The notes under the pieces are model-generated. The model was not told the DNA's origin, ran no database searches, and saw only the letters and a program-made list of their open reading frames with translations. A program made the position numbers and the translations under genes. Below, one piece after another: positions 3,716 to 40,102 of a stretch of DNA of 64,000 bases; within the stretch, counting starts at the first letter, position 1; every line of letters starts with the position of its first letter. The stretch comes from Neorhizobium sp. NCHU2750 (GTDB lineage Bacteria; Pseudomonadota; Alphaproteobacteria; Rhizobiales; Rhizobiaceae), in NCBI RefSeq assembly GCF_003597675.1, contig NZ_CP030830.1, positions 1 through 64,000 on the forward strand, given 5' to 3'.

Positions 3716-6700
3716 TCAGGCAGCGTCCTGAACCAGCAGTTCCTTCCGGTCATCGACTTCGACGGTCTGGTTTACTTCCGGTTCCGTATTGGGGGTACGG
3801 ACCCGGTACCAGATCGCATAGAGTGCCGGAAGGAATAGCAGGATGATGACTGTGCCCACGGCCGTGCCGCCGATCAGCGTGTAGGCCAGCGCTCCCCAGA
3901 AGACCGAGAAGGTCAGCGGGATGAACGCCAGGACTGCAGCCAGCGCGGTCAGGATGACCGGGCGGGCACGCTGTACCGTGGCTTCGACGACAGCGTGGTA
4001 GGTGTCGAGGCCTTCATGCATATTCGTCTTGATCTGTTCCATCAGGATGAGCGTGTTGCGCATCAGGATGCCAGAGAGGCCGATCAGGGCAAGGATTGCC
4101 GTGAAGCCGAAGGGCTGGTGGAAGATGAGCAACGTCGGAACGGCGCCGAGCAGGCCCAGCGGAGCCGTCAGCAGCACCATGAACATTGCCGAGAACGACC
4201 GGACCTCGAGCATGATGACGAGCATTGTCAGCACGATCATGATCGGGAAGACCTTGGCGAGTGCCACGTTGGCCTTCAGGGATTCCTCGACGTCCGCGCC
4301 GACCTGGATCTTGTAGCCTGCCGGAAGCGACTGCATCAGAGGCTGCAGCGACTTCGTGATTTCGGCTGCCACGTCCGGAGGCTGGACACCTTCTTCCACG
4401 TCGCTGCGGACGGTGATCGTCGGAGTGCGGTCGCGGCGCTTCAGGATCGGATCCTCTGTCGTGACTTCCATCTTGCCGATCTGATCGAGCGGGATCGTCT
4501 TGCCATCAGGTGCCACGAGAGTGAAGTCACCGAGACGGGCAGGATCGAGGCGCTCTTCGCCATCGCTGCGAGCCACGACGGCAACATTGCGGATGTCTTC
4601 GCGGACGGACGTGACGTTCACGCCAGTCAGGAGGAACTGCAGCTGCTGGGCGGCCTGCACCGGAGAGAGGCCAATCAGCTTGAGACGCTCCTGATCGAAC
4701 ACGAACTTCACAGAGGCGACGCGTTCACCCCAGTCGCGGTTGACGGTGCGGGTATGCGGGTTTGCACGCATCACTTCGAGTACCTGGTCGGCGATGTCGC
4801 GAACCTTCGTTTCATCAGGGCCCATGACGCGATATGCGACGGGGAACTGCGAGTACGGGCCGAAAACGAGCTGGGTGACGCGAACACGACCTTCCGGGGC
4901 GAGACCGTCGGCAACCTTCTCGCGAAGACGGATCTTCAAAGCTTCGCGTGCCTCTGCATCGGGCGTCAGGACGACGATCTTTGCGAAGGAAGGATCGGGA
5001 AGCTCAGGCGCATAGGAGAAGAAGAAGCGTGGAGCGCCCTGCCCGACATAGGACGTGACGATCTTGGCTTCGGGCTGAGTGCGAACATAGTCCTCGACCT
5101 TCTTCACGGCGCGCTCAGTCGCCTCAATGCTCGTGCCCTCAGGCATCTGCACTTCAAGCAGCAGCTCAGGACGGTCGGATGCCGGGAAGAACTGCTTCTT
5201 GACGACGGTCATGCCAGCGCCGGCGGCGACGAACATGACGAATACGACGGATGCGACCAGGAACTTGCGATGGACGGCCCACTTCACGACGGCACGCAGG
5301 CGACGGTAGTTCGGAGTGTTGTAGATCGCCTCATGACCACCTTCGACGGGCTTGATGGTCGGCAGCAGCTTGACGCCCAGGTAAGGCGTGAAGGCGACGG
5401 CGACGAGCCACGATGCGATCAGGGCAAAACCGACGATCCAGAAGATATTACCGGCATATTCACCCGAGCTCGACTTCGCGAAACCAACGGGCATCAGCCC
5501 AATGATCGTGACAAGCGTGCCCGACAACATCGGTGCGGCGGTATGGCTCCATGCATAGCGGCGGCACGAATGCGATCCATTCCCTCCTCCATCTTCACGA
5601 CCATGATCTCGATCGCAATGATGGCGTCGTCGACAAGCAGCCCAAGCGAGAGGATCAGCGCTCCAAGAGTGATGCGATCGAATGCGCGGTCTGTCGCCAT
5701 CATGACGAGGAAGACGATGGCGAGCGTCAGCGGGATCGCAGCGGCGACGATAATGCCGCTTCTCCAGCCGAGGCTGATCAGGCTGACGAGAAGTACCACA
5801 CCGAGGGCGACGAAGAACTTGAGCATGAACTCGTCGACAGCCTCTGAGATGTTGACTGCCTGGTCCGTGACTTTTTGCAGGCTGACACCAAGCGGAAGCG
5901 AAGAGGTCAGTTCGGAAGCCTTCTGCTCGAGAGCGGCACCGAGATTGAGACCGTTCCAACCATCCTGCATGACGACGCTGAGCATCAGCGCATCCTCGCC
6001 CTGATGGCGAATGCGGTAAGTGGCCGGATCCTCGTATCCGCGGCGGACCGCGGCAAGGTCCGAGAGCTTCATGTTGCGGGTGCCGACGACGATCGGTGTG
6101 TCCTTGATCTTCTGGACATCGTCATAGCTACCATCGACGCGGAGGTAGACCTGCGGGCCGTTGGTGTCGATCGAACCAGCCGGCGCCACATTGTTCTGCA
6201 GTTGAAGGCTCTGGAACACAGCCTGGGGGCTGATGCCAAGGCCAGCAAGGCGGGCATAGGAGAATTCGACGAAGATCTTCTCGGCTTGCTCGCCGAGGAT
6301 GTTGACCTTCTTGACGCCCGGCACATGCAGGAACTCCTGACGGAGATCTTCCGCCTGGCGAACGAGTTCACGGGCAGGCATTCCCTGTGCCTTCAACGCA
6401 TACAGAGCAAAGCTGACATCGGAATATTCATCGTTGATATAGGGCCCGAGCACGCCGCTCGGCAGCTTCAGGGCTTCGTCGCCGACCTTCTTGCGGGCCT
6501 GGTAAAATTCCTCGGGAACGCTCGCCGGCGGCATGCTGTCGAGCAGGCTAACGGTCATGAAAATTGCGCCCGGCCGCGCGATGGTCTCGACGCGGTCGTA
6601 GTAGCGCAGTTCCTGAAGCCGCTTTTCGAGAGGTTCGGCGACGAGCTGCTGCATTTCCTTTGCTGTGGCGCCCGGCCACACTGCGGTGACCGTGAATTGT

Positions 6701-35148: not shown

Positions 35149-35898
35149 ATGAGTAACGCACAACGGATTGATGCCCAAGGGGCCGTCAAGTATGACGAGG
35201 CGGACCTGAAAGCTATTGTGCTCACCAAGCTCCTGTCTGAGAAGGTTGCCGATAGGAAGTCATTCATTTCCAATGAATTCAAGTTGGGACCTGAACGAAG
35301 GGCCGACATTGCTCTTTTCAATGGAACTGATTTTATCGGTGTCGAAGTGAAAAGTGATTTCGACAACCTTAAGCGACTGGAAGGGCAGCATTCGGCTTAC
35401 TCGAAGGTATTCGACCGGATAATTGTCGTTGTAGCTGAGCGACATCTCTCACGAATAGTTCATGGCCATTGCGAGAGAGCAGATCTCTGGTCCGTTTCTC
35501 CTTTTGGCCAGGTGCGGCTTATTCGCGAGGCTCAAGAAGCACCAATTGCTTCCAAGACTGCGTTGGCCGACCTTCTGCAGAAGTCAGATCTTGCAAAGCT
35601 GGTCGGCGTGGAGAGAGGATCGAGAATTACTCGTGCCGCGCTGTATTCTAAGCTTGAAGAAATTGACGTGGAGGCAGTCCGCGCGGCCGTTGTTCAATCA
35701 TTCAACGGGCGTTTTGAGATATCAAGTCGACGATTTTTCAAGAATGTTACAGGCGTCGAGGTAATGCCTAGACATCTCACTCGATTGAGCCGATTTGAAC
35801 AGCAGCGAAAAAACATTCGAATTCATAAGCGTCAGAACGAGCAATTTTGGAAAGAATGGGCCAAAGTCGCTGACGAAGTATTTGCGGTTTCTGATTAA
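35149..35898 (+). CDS. sce7726-family protein, putative PD-(D/E)XK nuclease
   Basis: 249 residues. The first 110 look like a restriction-type nuclease fold: FISNEFKLGPERRADIALF, then FIGVEVKSDFDNLKRL, giving the D...EVK active-site pattern (D57, E69, K71 by my count). IIVVVAERHL follows as the next strand. This matches what I recall of the sce7726 family, known as a neighbour of sce7725/beta-family proteins. The C-terminal half is basic. The stop overlaps the convergent beta-family stop by 4 bases (35895-35898). No experimental role is known to me; nuclease activity is inference. Confidence 0.7.
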   Translation: MSNAQRIDAQGAVKYDEADLKAIVLTKLLSEKVADRKSFISNEFKLGPERRADIALFNGTDFIGVEVKSDFDNLKRLEGQHSAYSKVFDRIIVVVAERHLSRIVHGHCERADLWSVSPFGQVRLIREAQEAPIASKTALADLLQKSDLAKLVGVERGSRITRAALYSKLEEIDVEAVRAAVVQSFNGRFEISSRRFFKNVTGVEVMPRHLTRLSRFEQQRKNIRIHKRQNEQFWKEWAKVADEVFAVSD

Positions 35899-36974
35899 AA
35901 ATCAGTCCAATCCTCATCGGTGTCATACTTCTCGCTCGGAGGCGCACCGTAATACGACTGCTCGTGCAGATGAAGGTTTATCCGTACCGCAGTTGATCGA
36001 GCAGGTGAAACGATTGCGTCATCGTCTTCATTCGCCGTTCGTTCTATCATTTGCGTCCCCCAAACTTTCAAGAGCGGATCCCATGCTGAAGACTCTGTCG
36101 CTCGGGTAGCTGCGTCGAAATATGCTTGATCGCGGTCGCCCTGATCTTCTTCTCGGTAAAACTCCCATTGCGAAGCAACGGCGAGATCAACCCGTGGAGC
36201 TGGCGTGCCCCCTCCACCCAGTTGGCGTTCAGCACGTGCACTTCCTCGATCGCTGTAAATGAACGCCCGTTCCGGATGCAGATCAGAGACAAGACGGTGA
36301 AATTGCCTTTCGTAAATCTCTTGGGACACTCGGCCGACGAAATCACTAGGAAACGAGGTGGCCGACAAAGCTATCGCGGCATTGGGCATCACTCCCATGA
36401 TTGCAATCGAGATACCGTTTGCCGCCGCTGCTCGAGTTAGCAGCTCAGAGCTGGCTTGCTCGTAATCGATTACGAAGCAAACCTCGTCTTCGCTGAAGTG
36501 TTGGGAGACCGATTGAGCGATATTCACCGATTGGCCAAAAGCTTGCTGAGGCAATCTAATGACTAAGCCTCTTTCGAGGGTCGCCAGCCGAGCAAGCTGG
36601 GTTGGGAGCTCTACGAGATTCGCCAGCTGTAACGATGGTATATAATGCTCTCGAGCTTCAAGGAATTCGAACCAGTTACGATAGCCGTCCGTCGGGTTCC
36701 TTAATTCAGCGAGCTGTTGATGGACGGGACGTGGCTGACCTTCTATCGGCTCATTTGAACCAGCATCAATGATGACCGGCCGGGCGCCATAAGCTTCCTC
36801 AATGCGCACAAGTGCGTTGTCAAGTTGCTGGGCTGTGGTCCAGGGCCGCAAAAACATAAAAGGAAGAAGTCTATCTTTCGTTTTTTCGGGAAGCTCTTTG
36901 AGAGCCCGAATTTCGGCAGGACGAACAGACAGCAGAGGAACATAATCGACCTCTGATAACTCTCTTGGAAACAT
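35895..36974 (-). CDS. Beta-family protein (T4 beta / sce7725-like)
   Basis: 359-residue protein with the features of the 'beta protein' family: YVPLLSVRPAEIRALKELPEKTKDRLLPFMFLRPW at the start, RPVIIDAGSNEP, and YIPSLQLAN. Later come GLVIRLPQQ, CFVIDYEQ and FIYSDRGSARAERQLGG, then W.FYR(E) and WGTQMIE near the end. The alternating strand/helix pattern suggests an alpha/beta barrel-like fold; biochemical function is unknown. It is the last gene of a three-gene minus-strand unit (two-TM protein, ImmA/IrrE, beta). It also meets the sce7726 gene tail to tail, preserving the sce7725-sce7726 neighbourhood. Confidence 0.72.
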   Translation of the reverse strand: MFPRELSEVDYVPLLSVRPAEIRALKELPEKTKDRLLPFMFLRPWTTAQQLDNALVRIEEAYGARPVIIDAGSNEPIEGQPRPVHQQLAELRNPTDGYRNWFEFLEAREHYIPSLQLANLVELPTQLARLATLERGLVIRLPQQAFGQSVNIAQSVSQHFSEDEVCFVIDYEQASSELLTRAAAANGISIAIMGVMPNAAIALSATSFPSDFVGRVSQEIYERQFHRLVSDLHPERAFIYSDRGSARAERQLGGGGTPAPRVDLAVASQWEFYREEDQGDRDQAYFDAATRATESSAWDPLLKVWGTQMIERTANEDDDAIVSPARSTAVRINLHLHEQSYYGAPPSEKYDTDEDWTDF

Positions 36975-36991
36975 AGCCTCTCCCGTCGCGC

Positions 36992-37492
36992 CTATTCGAT
37001 CCCGAGTCGAATTTTCATTGCAGCCTCAGATACTCCGAAGCGTTTTGCAAGGTAAGCGACAGGCTCATCCGCCCTTATTACCTCAGCCGTTTTAAGAGCA
37101 CCTTCAACTAACGGTTCTGGCATCAATATATCTGCCGCGATCCGATTCGCTTCTGCTTCTCTGCGATCAGACAAAGTCGAGCGATAAAGCACATCGTCAG
37201 ATATGCCATTCCCAATTTGATCGCGGTGAAGCAAGAAATGCCCCAGTTCGTGGGCTACAGTGAACCTCTGTCTACTAGGGGGATCGTGCCGGTTGACCTT
37301 AATTATGTACCGCCCAGGATTCTCGATATCGGGCCTGATCTCTCCGGAAATACCCGGAGGAAGCGTTGACGCCTTAACAGGGACACCAAGCGCCTGCGCA
37401 AGAGCGGAGAGTTTTATGGGATAGCTGGTTTGGAATTGTTGGATAGTTGCCCGAACGTCGGCGGGCAAGCCGTTCCATTCTCGACTGCTCAT
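36992..37492 (-). CDS. ImmA/IrrE-family metallopeptidase
   Basis: 166-residue zinc peptidase. The HEXXH motif is AHELGHFLLH, with a downstream glutamate in EAEANRIAADILMP, both standard for the family. Homologues such as ImmA cleave phage-type repressors and IrrE/PprI cleaves DdrO. No HTH partner repressor is encoded next to it; instead its neighbours are a membrane protein (18 bases upstream) and the beta-family gene (17 bases downstream), likely one operon. The target could be either neighbour. Confidence 0.9.
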   Translation of the reverse strand: MSSREWNGLPADVRATIQQFQTSYPIKLSALAQALGVPVKASTLPPGISGEIRPDIENPGRYIIKVNRHDPPSRQRFTVAHELGHFLLHRDQIGNGISDDVLYRSTLSDRREAEANRIAADILMPEPLVEGALKTAEVIRADEPVAYLAKRFGVSEAAMKIRLGIE

Positions 37493-37510
37493 ATGCCCGT
37501 CTCCTTAGTG

Positions 37511-37993
37511 CTAAGCGCCATATTCTTTTTCTTCGTCCCCCATGGGGTTGTCGTTATCATCTTCGTTAGCGCGTATACTAGGACCAGATATCAGGAACCG
37601 GTCTGCGCGCTCCTCAAGAATTCTCCTCAGCTTGCCGTCGTCCATTTGTTTGATAACTTCTTGAACGAGTAGCTTATTCAGCTCATCTCGTAGCTGACCT
37701 TCTTCCAGCTCGCTTTTCACATGGTCTAGTGCCGCGTTGGAAGCTGCCACTTTGAATTGCGAGTATCCCCAGAGTGCCAGGATCGCCATGAACACGCCCA
37801 GAACGGTCACAAGTACGCCCACAGCGCCCAGCATCAACGCTGCCATGTCAGCGTAGCTCATGGTCACTCCGCCATTTTCCGCCATCTCAGAGTTCTCAAA
37901 ATGAAGGCCTTTTAGATAAAGGGAAGATACTATCCCCCCACCCAAGAGCCCCGCGCCGAAGACTTGGAAGTAGTAGTTTGATGCCCGAGCCAT
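37511..37993 (-). CDS. Hypothetical two-TM membrane protein
   Basis: 160 residues, not recognised. A first hydrophobic stretch (about 9-29, YYFQVFGAGLLGGGIVSSLYL) and a strong second one (about 49-75, ALMLGAVGVLVTVLGVFMAILALWGY) bracket a short loop. The C-terminal 85 residues form a charged, probably coiled-coil cytoplasmic region (LDHVKSELEEGQLRDELNKLL and beyond) with an acidic tail. It is first in the unit with the ImmA peptidase and beta-family genes and has a good promoter. A TM protein beside an ImmA peptidase could be a membrane effector. Confidence 0.65.
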   Translation of the reverse strand: MARASNYYFQVFGAGLLGGGIVSSLYLKGLHFENSEMAENGGVTMSYADMAALMLGAVGVLVTVLGVFMAILALWGYSQFKVAASNAALDHVKSELEEGQLRDELNKLLVQEVIKQMDDGKLRRILEERADRFLISGPSIRANEDDNDNPMGDEEKEYGA

Positions 37994-38262: not shown

Positions 38263-39510
38263 TCACAAATCCTTCAGCCGTAGGAGTTCTCGCTCCACTT
38301 CGCGTTCAAACCGGCGTAACTGCCGCAAAATCAGGTCACCATTATCGAAAAGACTGGCACTACGGCGGGCGTAAGATGAAAAATTTCGGGCAGCGACTGA
38401 TGTGAAACGCTTGCGCAGCTTCTTGGTGTAGACCTTGGACGCTTTACCCTGAGCGATCGCCTTGGTCGCAACCTCACGGGTCCGGCGTACACCTTTGCGC
38501 ATCTTACGCCATTGCCTAGACAGGGAGCTTGGGCGGATTGCGGCGCCGTCGCCATGAAACGTAAATCCGAGGTATTGCGCGGCTCGCCTGGAAGCGAGCG
38601 CGGCGTTCGCTGGGTCGAACTCAGAGACTTCCGTCTTGTCTCGGCTGATTTGCAAAGCGTCTGCTTCGAGGAGAACTTCAATCTTAATCTCGACATCTCG
38701 AGCATGGGCGAGTTTGCACACGACGAGGATATCGTCCGAATATCGCCGATAAAGGGCTCCGATTGACCGGCAATAAGCACTCATCTCGACATCGAAATCT
38801 AGCATATAAAGATTGGAAAAAGCCGCGCTGATCGGGGTCCCTTGGGGTATGCCAAAGAAGTTCGGATTCTCGTGAATGGGAATGCCCGCTCGCTTAACCT
38901 CCGCGATGGTGGCAATCGGGTCTCGTGTCTTTTTCTGGAGGCTAAGCAGGAATTCGGGGCGTGTGCGAAGATCATCAAGATGGACGAAGCGAAACTTTGT
39001 CATAAATCGATAGATCTTGAACCAGTCGTCCGGCAAATTCTGATGGCCAAGAAGGTTACGAAGGCGGGTCTTTAGCCGGCGGTGATCAAGCGTGTCGAAG
39101 AACTTGGTGACGTCGTACGCAAGTATGGCAACTGGCGCGTTGGAAAGAGCGTACCGATAGACGTCTGACGCAAAATGATAGTTTCCTTTGCCAAGCGACC
39201 TATAAGCTATGACGCTCTCGCCGATAGTCTTCGCTGCATAGGTTTCTTCAAGTCGCTTATTCAACAGCCACGCATAGTACGAGAGGATACAGGCGTCGCG
39301 GTGGGACGCGTACATGATCGAGCGATCTTTGGCCTTTGTTTTGTGGTCCTTAGCTTTGTAGCGCTTTTCTGACTTTACATAGTGAATGAGCGGCGAAAAC
39401 GAGTGTTGCTCCACGGATTTCGGCTGGGAAACAGCTTTGGCATAGGATAGCCCAACTTGCCGATCAAAATGCCGATATCCGCGAGGAGAAAACCAAGAAG
39501 AATCGTTCAA
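38263..39510 (-). CDS. Reverse transcriptase, Drt2-like antiviral class
   Basis: 415-residue reverse transcriptase. Motif A is AILAYDVTKFFDTLDH (D133). Motif B is GIPQGTPISAAFSNLYMLDFD (from about 220). Motif C is YRRYSDDILVV, with catalytic D259 and D260 and the variant YSDD. The start GYRHFD, then YASHRDACILSYYAWLL, IAYRSLGKGN and the C-terminal QYLGFTFHGDGAAIRPSSLSR resemble the Drt2 (UG2) defence reverse transcriptases as I remember them, not group II intron or retron enzymes. No maturase or other domain is present. The start is TTG 39510, directly after structured DNA; Drt2 systems encode a template ncRNA upstream. Subfamily call is from memory of sequence patterns. Confidence 0.85.
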   Translation of the reverse strand: MNDSSWFSPRGYRHFDRQVGLSYAKAVSQPKSVEQHSFSPLIHYVKSEKRYKAKDHKTKAKDRSIMYASHRDACILSYYAWLLNKRLEETYAAKTIGESVIAYRSLGKGNYHFASDVYRYALSNAPVAILAYDVTKFFDTLDHRRLKTRLRNLLGHQNLPDDWFKIYRFMTKFRFVHLDDLRTRPEFLLSLQKKTRDPIATIAEVKRAGIPIHENPNFFGIPQGTPISAAFSNLYMLDFDVEMSAYCRSIGALYRRYSDDILVVCKLAHARDVEIKIEVLLEADALQISRDKTEVSEFDPANAALASRRAAQYLGFTFHGDGAAIRPSSLSRQWRKMRKGVRRTREVATKAIAQGKASKVYTKKLRKRFTSVAARNFSSYARRSASLFDNGDLILRQLRRFEREVERELLRLKDL

Positions 39511-39514
39511 GCGT

Positions 39515-39587
39515 TGCGGCTCCGCAGAGTTCGGGAAGTTGACCCTGACCCTGGATCCCAGCTGCTATAGCCGGACACTTCCCGAAC
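39515..39587 (-). ncRNA. Candidate structured RNA upstream of the reverse transcriptase
   Basis: Between 39510 and about 39660 the minus strand folds strongly. A perfect 11-bp stem (GTTCGGGAAGT with ACTTCCCGAAC, 39577-39587 and 39529-39539) encloses a 37-base loop that contains a CTGG/CCAG pairing. A second hairpin TGCGG-AG-CCGCA (39515-39526) ends 4 bases before the start codon. A TATAAT box (39665-39670) could start the RNA, but no -35 match stands out. Position and folding fit the Drt2 ncRNA; true ends and template are unknown. Confidence 0.5.
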
Positions 39588-39690
39588 GCACGCCGCCATC
39601 TGCCTGTACCTCAATCGAATGGATCGAATGCGATTCCGACACGGGTCTGTTAACGCGAGGCGGTATTATATAACCATGGAGGTCCGAGCT

Positions 39691-39825
39691 ATGCTCGATG
39701 TCTCGTTCATCATCACCTTCTTGCTGGCGCAGATCATCGATCTGGTCCTGCCTGGAAGCAACTTTCAACTTGACAGTCTCAACGGTCCGACCCGCTGGCC
39801 AATTCCAGGGGCATTCAAAACATAG
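39691..39825 (+). CDS. Possible small hydrophobic peptide
   Basis: 44 codons from ATG 39691, with an ideal GGAGG 8 bases upstream. The N-terminal half is a single predicted TM helix (VSFIITFLLAQIIDLVL) followed by a polar tail ending PGAFKT. It is divergent from the reverse transcriptase and its leader. Size and hydrophobicity recall type I toxins or small membrane stress peptides, but nothing identifies it; it could be chance. No convincing promoter was found. Confidence 0.3.
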   Translation: MLDVSFIITFLLAQIIDLVLPGSNFQLDSLNGPTRWPIPGAFKT

Positions 39826-40102
39826 GTGTGGTCATGCGATTCTGCAACTCCTTCGTCCCGGTCCCACCTTGCTCACAATGAGTGGTCTAGGGTTCGTGTC
39901 CGTTCAAGAGCGTAACGTCGAGCTCCATGCCGACCATCTCGGCAAATCCATCGGGCTAATAATATGAGTGAACAACTCTAGTATTGATATATCGACGATC
40001 TCGCGATAACGAAGCCGAATGCTGATGGGGCAAGATAGGTTCGAGCCACATCTTACTCGTTGGCGCCACATGACCGCTTGAACCGCCCAGAGAGGTTGCC
40101 GC
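39826..40102. other. Spacer before second sigma gene
   Basis: About 280 bases with no recognised gene. The promoter for the FecI-like gene should be in the last 100 bases, but I could not identify a clear box. Confidence 0.3.

Follow-up and report, generated by a model that had tools for sequence, protein, structure and literature searches.

The locus raises a question: does the reverse transcriptase (RT) gene found on a presumed plasmid of Neorhizobium sp. NCHU2750, together with the structured DNA that precedes it, represent a DRT2 system, and, if so, does it synthesise a gene from a non-coding RNA (ncRNA) in the way described for Klebsiella pneumoniae? According to the published work (Wilkinson et al. 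2024, PMC12039810), once infection has occurred the Klebsiella RT passes again and again over a 120-nt template; a promoter with 17-bp spacing arises in the joined cDNA, and its transcript codes for Neo, a toxic protein read without stop codons. That work gives ACA as the rule for the jump, 117 nt as the commonest unit length and 111 nt as another. A second study (Tang et al. 2024, PMC11100668) presents ncRNA models for divergent clades, describes Neo as hard to annotate there and suggests other mechanisms. The original prediction, made on the window (the whole 64-kb stretch of DNA analysed here), was of a Drt2-like RT with an upstream ncRNA copied into stop-free repeats; at the level of sequence, this core idea is backed by the family of the RT, by a conserved ncRNA and by the reading frame described below.

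The reverse transcriptase and its surroundings

The RT gene lies on the reverse strand of the window (38263–39510), begins with TTG and encodes a stand-alone protein of 415 aa, in line with the ~420 aa expected of DRT2. Its motif C reads YSDD, RVT_1 is its sole Pfam domain and no maturase domain is present, which bears out the original description of the enzyme. The proposed resemblance to Drt2/UG2 was confirmed by the profile search that had been suggested: Drt2 was the best model both in PADLOC (447.7 bits, E 1.5e-134) and in NCBIfam (NF041746, 404.2 bits against a curated cut-off of 390), the best PADLOC model of any other family was RT_UG17 (E 5.6e-23), and the group II intron and retron models, named beforehand as the contrary outcome, fell behind Drt2 by a wide margin in both collections. 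In the PDB, the Klebsiella DRT2 chains (9c0i family) matched across nearly the full length with an E-value of about 1e-64. An AlphaFold2 model for which the window protein and 28 relatives served as input (pLDDT 90.2) was compared with the solved Klebsiella structure 9c0i, giving TM-scores of 0.88/0.86 over 431 columns; the next fold matches were DRT9 (TM 0.51) and group II intron RTs (about 0.5), which have the same RT palm and fingers but far weaker profile and fold matches. Because NCBIfam, PADLOC, PDB and the predicted fold agree, the assignment of the enzyme to DRT2 is solid.

The source contig (380,325 bp) carries RepB at 1215–2204, and for this reason we treat it as a repABC plasmid, which agrees with the rhizobial plasmid setting of the original prediction. 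Just after RepB there is an Rfam S-element (2323–2389; 47.1 bits against a cut-off of 47), which we take to be, probably, the usual RNA controlling plasmid replication. On its ncRNA side, the RT gene is accompanied by an ECF sigma factor gene (Pfam) and, as judged by eye, by FecR-like and TonB-receptor-like genes; on its far side, PADLOC and Pfam identify a Beta_protein gene and one for an ImmA/IrrE-like peptidase, and inspection by eye shows a gene for a small protein containing hydrophobic stretches. These three, the peptidase being close to PADLOC capP, occupy 35149–37993 together with an sce7726-family gene (PADLOC 'cll'), and this region beside the RT is a possible defence island; comparison of its genes with PD-Lambda-2 gave weak matches only (PADLOC, Pfam, NCBIfam).

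A conserved RNA and its RT-13 scaffold

Another question is whether the hairpins before the RT gene belong to a larger RNA. A predicted ncRNA of about 290 nt (39520–39812, reverse strand; ends inferred) is conserved, with covariation, in 14 other loci and reaches ~220 nt beyond the hairpins originally noticed, up to about 39812. The 15 loci compared are the window, Xaviernesmea L002, Sinorhizobium psoraleae L003, an R. beringeri plasmid (L009), Jannaschia L004, L011, L012 and L039–L046. Loci that repeat others or the window (L001, L005, L006, L007, L008, L010 and L038) were omitted; L041, a near copy of L039, is counted among the 15 and stands outside the 14-row alignment, and L052 (Acinetobacter), with only 67 bases before the match, is outside the analysis. 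The shared stretch of about 290 nt (about 230 in L012) runs from the 5' hairpin at 39811 through the 3' scaffold. The hairpin (SL1, the '5' handle'; 39792–39811, reverse strand) forms helix 1 and shows compensatory changes in five of its six pairs. Upstream of it, a possible ncRNA promoter, TTGCAG-17-TATGTT (39819–39847, reverse strand), was read by eye; a similar site was found in the same way at the same place in L002, L003 and L009, and was unrecognised in the other loci.

Because single-sequence folding of the window RNA was unexceptional (z −1.46), the case for structure rests on comparison. RNAalifold applied to the 14 rows yielded 55 pairs, with 94.5% of cells paired and changes on both sides in 30 of the 55; none of 500 shuffles reached either the paired-cell share or the count of both-side changes, in a test that related rows inflate and on a structure derived from these same rows. 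Slid structures on the same alignment had 32–47% paired, and one of the five covariation measures, the number of further pair types, did not rise above the shuffles (61 of 500 as high). A conserved RNA structure with compensatory changes is thus found in the homologues, as had been anticipated, and it corresponds to the structured ncRNA of about 280 nt that lies directly upstream of the RT in DRT2. In those systems the 3' part of the RNA contains a pseudoknot, and its 3' end carries a short DNA primer.

The 3' part of this RNA (39524–39593, reverse strand) was recognised by Rfam, in a search of the whole window, as RT-13 RNA (RF03017; 76.3 bits against a cut-off of 69.1, E 1.3e-13), a scaffold with an 11-bp stem and two hairpins. 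The perfect 11-bp stem described originally (arms 39577–39587 and 39529–39539) is the central stem of RT-13 and lies far beyond chance. The second hairpin, placed close to the RT start (39515–39526), is present in the letters as a 5-bp form, and we rejected it as a real feature: with its 2-nt loop and with most homologues differing there, it is probably due to chance or part of the ribosome-binding site. The hairpins to which the original prediction pointed form the 3' scaffold and not the template, which is placed further upstream (39652–39780).

In 385 genomes of the class, a search with RT-13 RNA and a search with the RT matched an identical set of three genomes, one of them the window's own, which indicates that RT-13 goes with this RT. 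Among the 13 other clade loci scanned, RT-13 reached the Rfam cut-off in 12; the thirteenth, L012, scored 55.7 bits, below it. RT-12 (RF03016) was found instead of RT-13 in L047 (RT 52.7% identical) and L061 (63%), both DRT2 loci near the Klebsiella system, so this second RNA family of the RT-x series seems to be a DRT2 scaffold too; the Rfam scan of four other DRT2 loci (L048–L051) gave neither RNA at cut-off. The RT-13 and RT-12 models span 67 and 117 positions, respectively, and the RT-x motifs reportedly originate from a 2017 study. The Rfam lines printed by the search ('Gene; sRNA', 'RT-13 RNA'), to which the comparison was confined rather than to the full entries, name neither DRT2 nor a template nor neo. 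In the literature searched, a body that did not include the original RT-13 description, we found no link between RT-13 RNA and DRT2, nor any joint mention of DRT2 and Rhizobium.

A tree of 20 RTs, from which L003 and L041 were left out, places the 13 readable RT-13-associated RTs on one side of a branch with support of 100/100, apart from the Klebsiella and RT-12 rows and on a separate long branch, the exact placing of which is made unsure by the long branch of L049. YSDD occurs in all 13 of these enzymes, as against YCDD in the RT-12-associated RTs and Klebsiella DRT2. The serine in motif C is accordingly not special to this copy; L049, outside the RT-13 clade, has it as well.

Some observations concern individual loci and wider collections. 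The RT of L003 (4872–6166) reads in two frames and, with its frame split in this manner, is regarded as broken or misassembled; the ncRNA and neo frame of this locus look intact. In L009, the GenBank start of drt2 (5887) falls inside the predicted ncRNA, before RT-13 (5918–5987), and is probably too early. Viral contigs searched with the window RT, an alignment and two DNA patterns yielded nothing useful, and the 25 stretches from one of these searches had no RT-13-like continuation; in a phage collection, one search returned three distant matches and another none. E. coli genomes searched with the Photobacterium ncRNA gave no match.

The predicted template, junction promoter and neo frame

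Does the RNA contain a template from which a gene could be assembled? On the forward strand of the window, antisense to the ncRNA, the order is a −10 element TATTAT (39664–39669), a largely conserved Shine-Dalgarno sequence GGAGG (39678–39682), an ATG (39691), a coding stretch and a −35 element TTGACA (39770–39775). In the genome such an order is useless because the slot 17 nt before the −10 holds no −35-like hexamer (each of the 15 loci differs from TTGACA there at 4–5 positions); TTGAC (TTGAT in L045) stands at the far template end in each of the 15 loci. As far as the sequences tell, the two halves come into register only when one copy follows another head to tail, the −35 being used with the next repeat. 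In the window, the predicted repeat unit of the concatemeric cDNA (39652–39780, forward strand as the neo sense strand) has 129 nt or 43 codons, and its length is divisible by three. At its ends lie short-repeat sites on the reverse strand, at 39781–39784 and at 39652–39655; averaged over the loci, no register shares a longer repeat than that of spacer 17. A head-to-tail join at this repeat would yield TTGACA-17 nt-TATTAT and a stop-free unit with a frame open across the junction, encoding 43 aa with a hydrophobic stretch: MLDVSFIITFLLAQIIDLVLPGSNFQLDSLNARRYYITMEVRA. The RNAalifold helix that pairs 39783–39787 with 39672–39676 holds the G of the first GUU in its last pair, which resembles the position of Klebsiella ACA-1, abutting SL2. 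The single-copy neo frame in the genome (39691–39825, forward strand, starting at the ATG) has 44 aa plus a stop and, besides itself, four 44-aa relatives in the protein collection; in L009, GenBank annotates the single antisense unit (5692–5820) as a hypothetical protein.

The choice of register was assessed in all 15 loci with joined spacers of 8–40, conditional on −10 positions hand-chosen at the aligned place. Spacer 17 is in frame and gives the longest shared repeat, with a mean of 4.13 and at least 3 nt in each locus; the means for the 32 other spacers range from 0.60 to 3.73, the highest being at 39, which is out of frame. Within a single locus other registers match as well (4 of 32 in the window and 10 of 32 in L043, for example), so the strength of the result lies in the agreement of the loci. 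The repeat at the cDNA junction is AACG, AAC or AAACG, with TCAACG in L011 and ACA in L012; in RNA this is GUU in 14 of 15 loci and UGU in L012, and in L012 and L043 only 3 nt are shared. The stretch from −10 to −35 measures 112, 106, 103 or 49 nt, in every case 1 modulo 3, and the units measure 129 nt in all but three of the 15 loci, which have 123, 120 and 66 nt. TTGACA-17-TATTAT of the window has similar counterparts elsewhere at the same 17-bp spacing, with a weak −10 in 5 of 15 loci (two mismatches in L002, L003, L009 and L044, three in L011); the −35 of L045 has two mismatches.

All 15 loci have a −10-anchored frame that is open across the junction and a unit length divisible by three, so that, judged by sequence, the stop-free unit expected from the upstream RNA can be read throughout. 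In dinucleotide-shuffled units (one member for each of nine lineages) the same frame was open in 4.5–26%, and open frames are common in this DNA, an open sense frame also being present in 10 of the 15 loci. The predicted proteins start with ML (MM in L012), and most finish with NAR, followed by a pair of residues that are aromatic or similar and then by EVRA or something close to it; their best 19-residue hydropathy is at least 1.75 in 14 loci and 0.61 in L012. The pN/pS signal for the neo frame is weak: 0.47 against 0.57–1.27 in the other five frames within the rhizobial group, and 0.74 against 0.84–1.13 over eleven 129-nt units. With 66 nt (22 codons) and the jump repeat UGU, the predicted template of L012 (2842–3074), from a one-contig genome of 1.7 Mb, is the shortest in the clade; it lies close to a weakly scoring tRNA, and tRNA genes also occur in the L043, L044 and L045 stretches.

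An additional piece of evidence was obtained by scanning with a strict rule, which was fixed after the pattern had already been seen (spacer 17, at most one mismatch over both hexamers together, a shared repeat of at least 3 nt and an open −10-anchored frame). The whole window, on both strands, contained one hit, at the ncRNA template. In 438,638 compared bases, a set from which seven repeat loci had been dropped and in which some overlap with the window remains, there were 11 hits, of which nine fall within DRT2 templates; the other two belong to AT-rich L051, inside and just behind the RT gene of that DRT2 locus. The strict scan recovers 8 of the 15 clade loci, the missed seven having weaker hexamers; with loose limits the scan is non-discriminating (hits in 57 of 200 shuffles). 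As a positive control, L061, with an RT 63% identical to Klebsiella DRT2, gave TTGACA-17-TATAAT, a TGT junction and 117 nt, and thus reproduces the published unit in its length and its ACA-type junction. L047 has a unit of 111 nt with the shared repeat AGAT in RNA, not ACA. For the more distant DRT2 loci L048–L051, a scan with the same spacing gave no module upstream of the RT; a 144-nt candidate in L050 appeared at spacer 16, in the loose scan only.

Rival readings and the proposed mechanism

The same RT and ncRNA might make repeated cDNA by jumping elsewhere, at AGAC (131 nt, spacer 19) or CCGU (141 nt, spacer 29), with a product that lacks an endless frame or a promoter and acts as DNA or RNA. 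In the window both sequences do occur at the two template ends, as runs of four, and such a product would suit the account of Tang et al. (PMC11100668), in which Neo is hard to annotate in divergent clades and other mechanisms are suggested. However, the AGAC register is out of frame in all 15 loci and its repeat is not kept (1–3 nt in 10 of 15), whereas the CCGU register, although in frame, would set −35 and −10 29 bp apart, and its repeat falls to 1 nt in L012, L045 and L046. Both jumps were rejected on spacing, frame and conservation, and we consider the reading built on them improbable.

It is also conceivable that the coding pattern has nothing to do with joined cDNA. The antisense frame could be an ordinary gene for a small hydrophobic toxin, read from the genome beside the RT, with the ncRNA as its antisense repressor in the style of type I toxin-antitoxin systems; a genomic copy with a Shine-Dalgarno sequence, an ATG and a 44-aa frame with four relatives, as well as the GenBank annotation in R. 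beringeri, would be expected of such a gene. Yet the genome offers it no −35 17 nt before the −10 in any of the 15 loci, TTGAC or TTGAT standing at the far end instead, the open frame extends back from the ATG past the −10, and the RNA structure and the RT fit DRT2; this makes a conventional toxin gene very unlikely. Alternatively, the conserved RNA could be a mere leader or RT-binding scaffold, the coding pattern being a by-product of strong RNA constraint, a view to which the conservation of much of the template edge as DNA and the abundance of open frames lend something. The template middle varies, though, while its length changes by multiples of three only, the promoter halves keep their joined spacing of 17 nt, and the control close to the proven system (L061) behaves alike, so we regard a by-product as scarcely credible.

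The DRT2 reading with a template copied into joined repeats agrees with the Klebsiella system (Wilkinson et al. 2024, PMC12039810; Tang et al. 2024, PMC11100668) in the single RT gene and its fold (TM 0.88), in an ncRNA of similar length directly upstream with a 5' hairpin, a template and a structured 3' part, and in a neo frame read antisense, with promoter halves that sit at either end of the template and join at 17 bp, and with a unit divisible by three. It differs in the RT, which is about 31% identical, stands on the separate long branch and has YSDD rather than YCDD; in the jump repeat, GUU (UGU in one locus) as against ACA; in the 3' scaffold, RT-13 as against RT-12 in the Klebsiella relatives L047 and L061; and in the unit, 43 codons in the window and 66–129 nt in its clade. 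Since the ACA-1 and ACA-2 that mark the template ends in the Klebsiella-related clade are replaced here by GUU or UGU, the system is placed as a DRT2 variant outside that clade.

The sequences themselves establish the family of the RT, the conserved ncRNA with its structure, the promoter halves, the frame and the short repeats. Since the locus has both halves of the promoter, the open frame, the repeats on either side of the template, a 5' hairpin and a 3' scaffold, we infer the same mechanism: very probably, the locus is an abortive-infection system of DRT2 type from an alphaproteobacterial subclade, in which an ncRNA template is turned into head-to-tail cDNA and then into a stop-free toxic repeat protein. 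The RT would bind the ~290-nt ncRNA transcribed just upstream of its gene and, upon phage infection, would copy the 129-nt template lying between two GUU repeats. The resulting cDNA is predicted to have a 129-nt period and the junction AAC joined to GCG, the tandem-repeat letters around it being GTCTCAAC joined to GCGAGGCGGTATTAT. In the joined DNA, the −35 of one repeat and the −10 of the next, 17 bp apart, would form a promoter that is absent unless copies are joined; its mRNA, devoid of stop codons and with a frame crossing every junction, would encode a hydrophobic protein with the unit given above as its repeat, leading to cell arrest. RNA binding, cDNA synthesis, jumping, second-strand synthesis, transcription, toxicity and defence would here take the course known from published DRT2 work.

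What does this mean for the family? RT-13 is probably the scaffold of a second, far-diverged branch of gene-synthesising DRT2 systems, in which the jump signal may be any short repeat on offer (GUU, UGU, ACA) and the template an exchangeable cassette that grows or shrinks by whole codons, to as few as 22, without any shift in frame or promoter spacing. If this is true, the divergent clades where annotating Neo proved difficult would work alike, and gene synthesis from an ncRNA would extend to a clade without ACA signals. What appeared to be a leader hairpin would become part of a complete hidden gene, and two Rfam RNA families, RT-13 and RT-12, would be tied to a mechanism. For the question of whether divergent DRT2 systems make Neo in the same manner, the locus would supply exact predictions: the junction sequence, the 129-nt period, the promoter and the protein.
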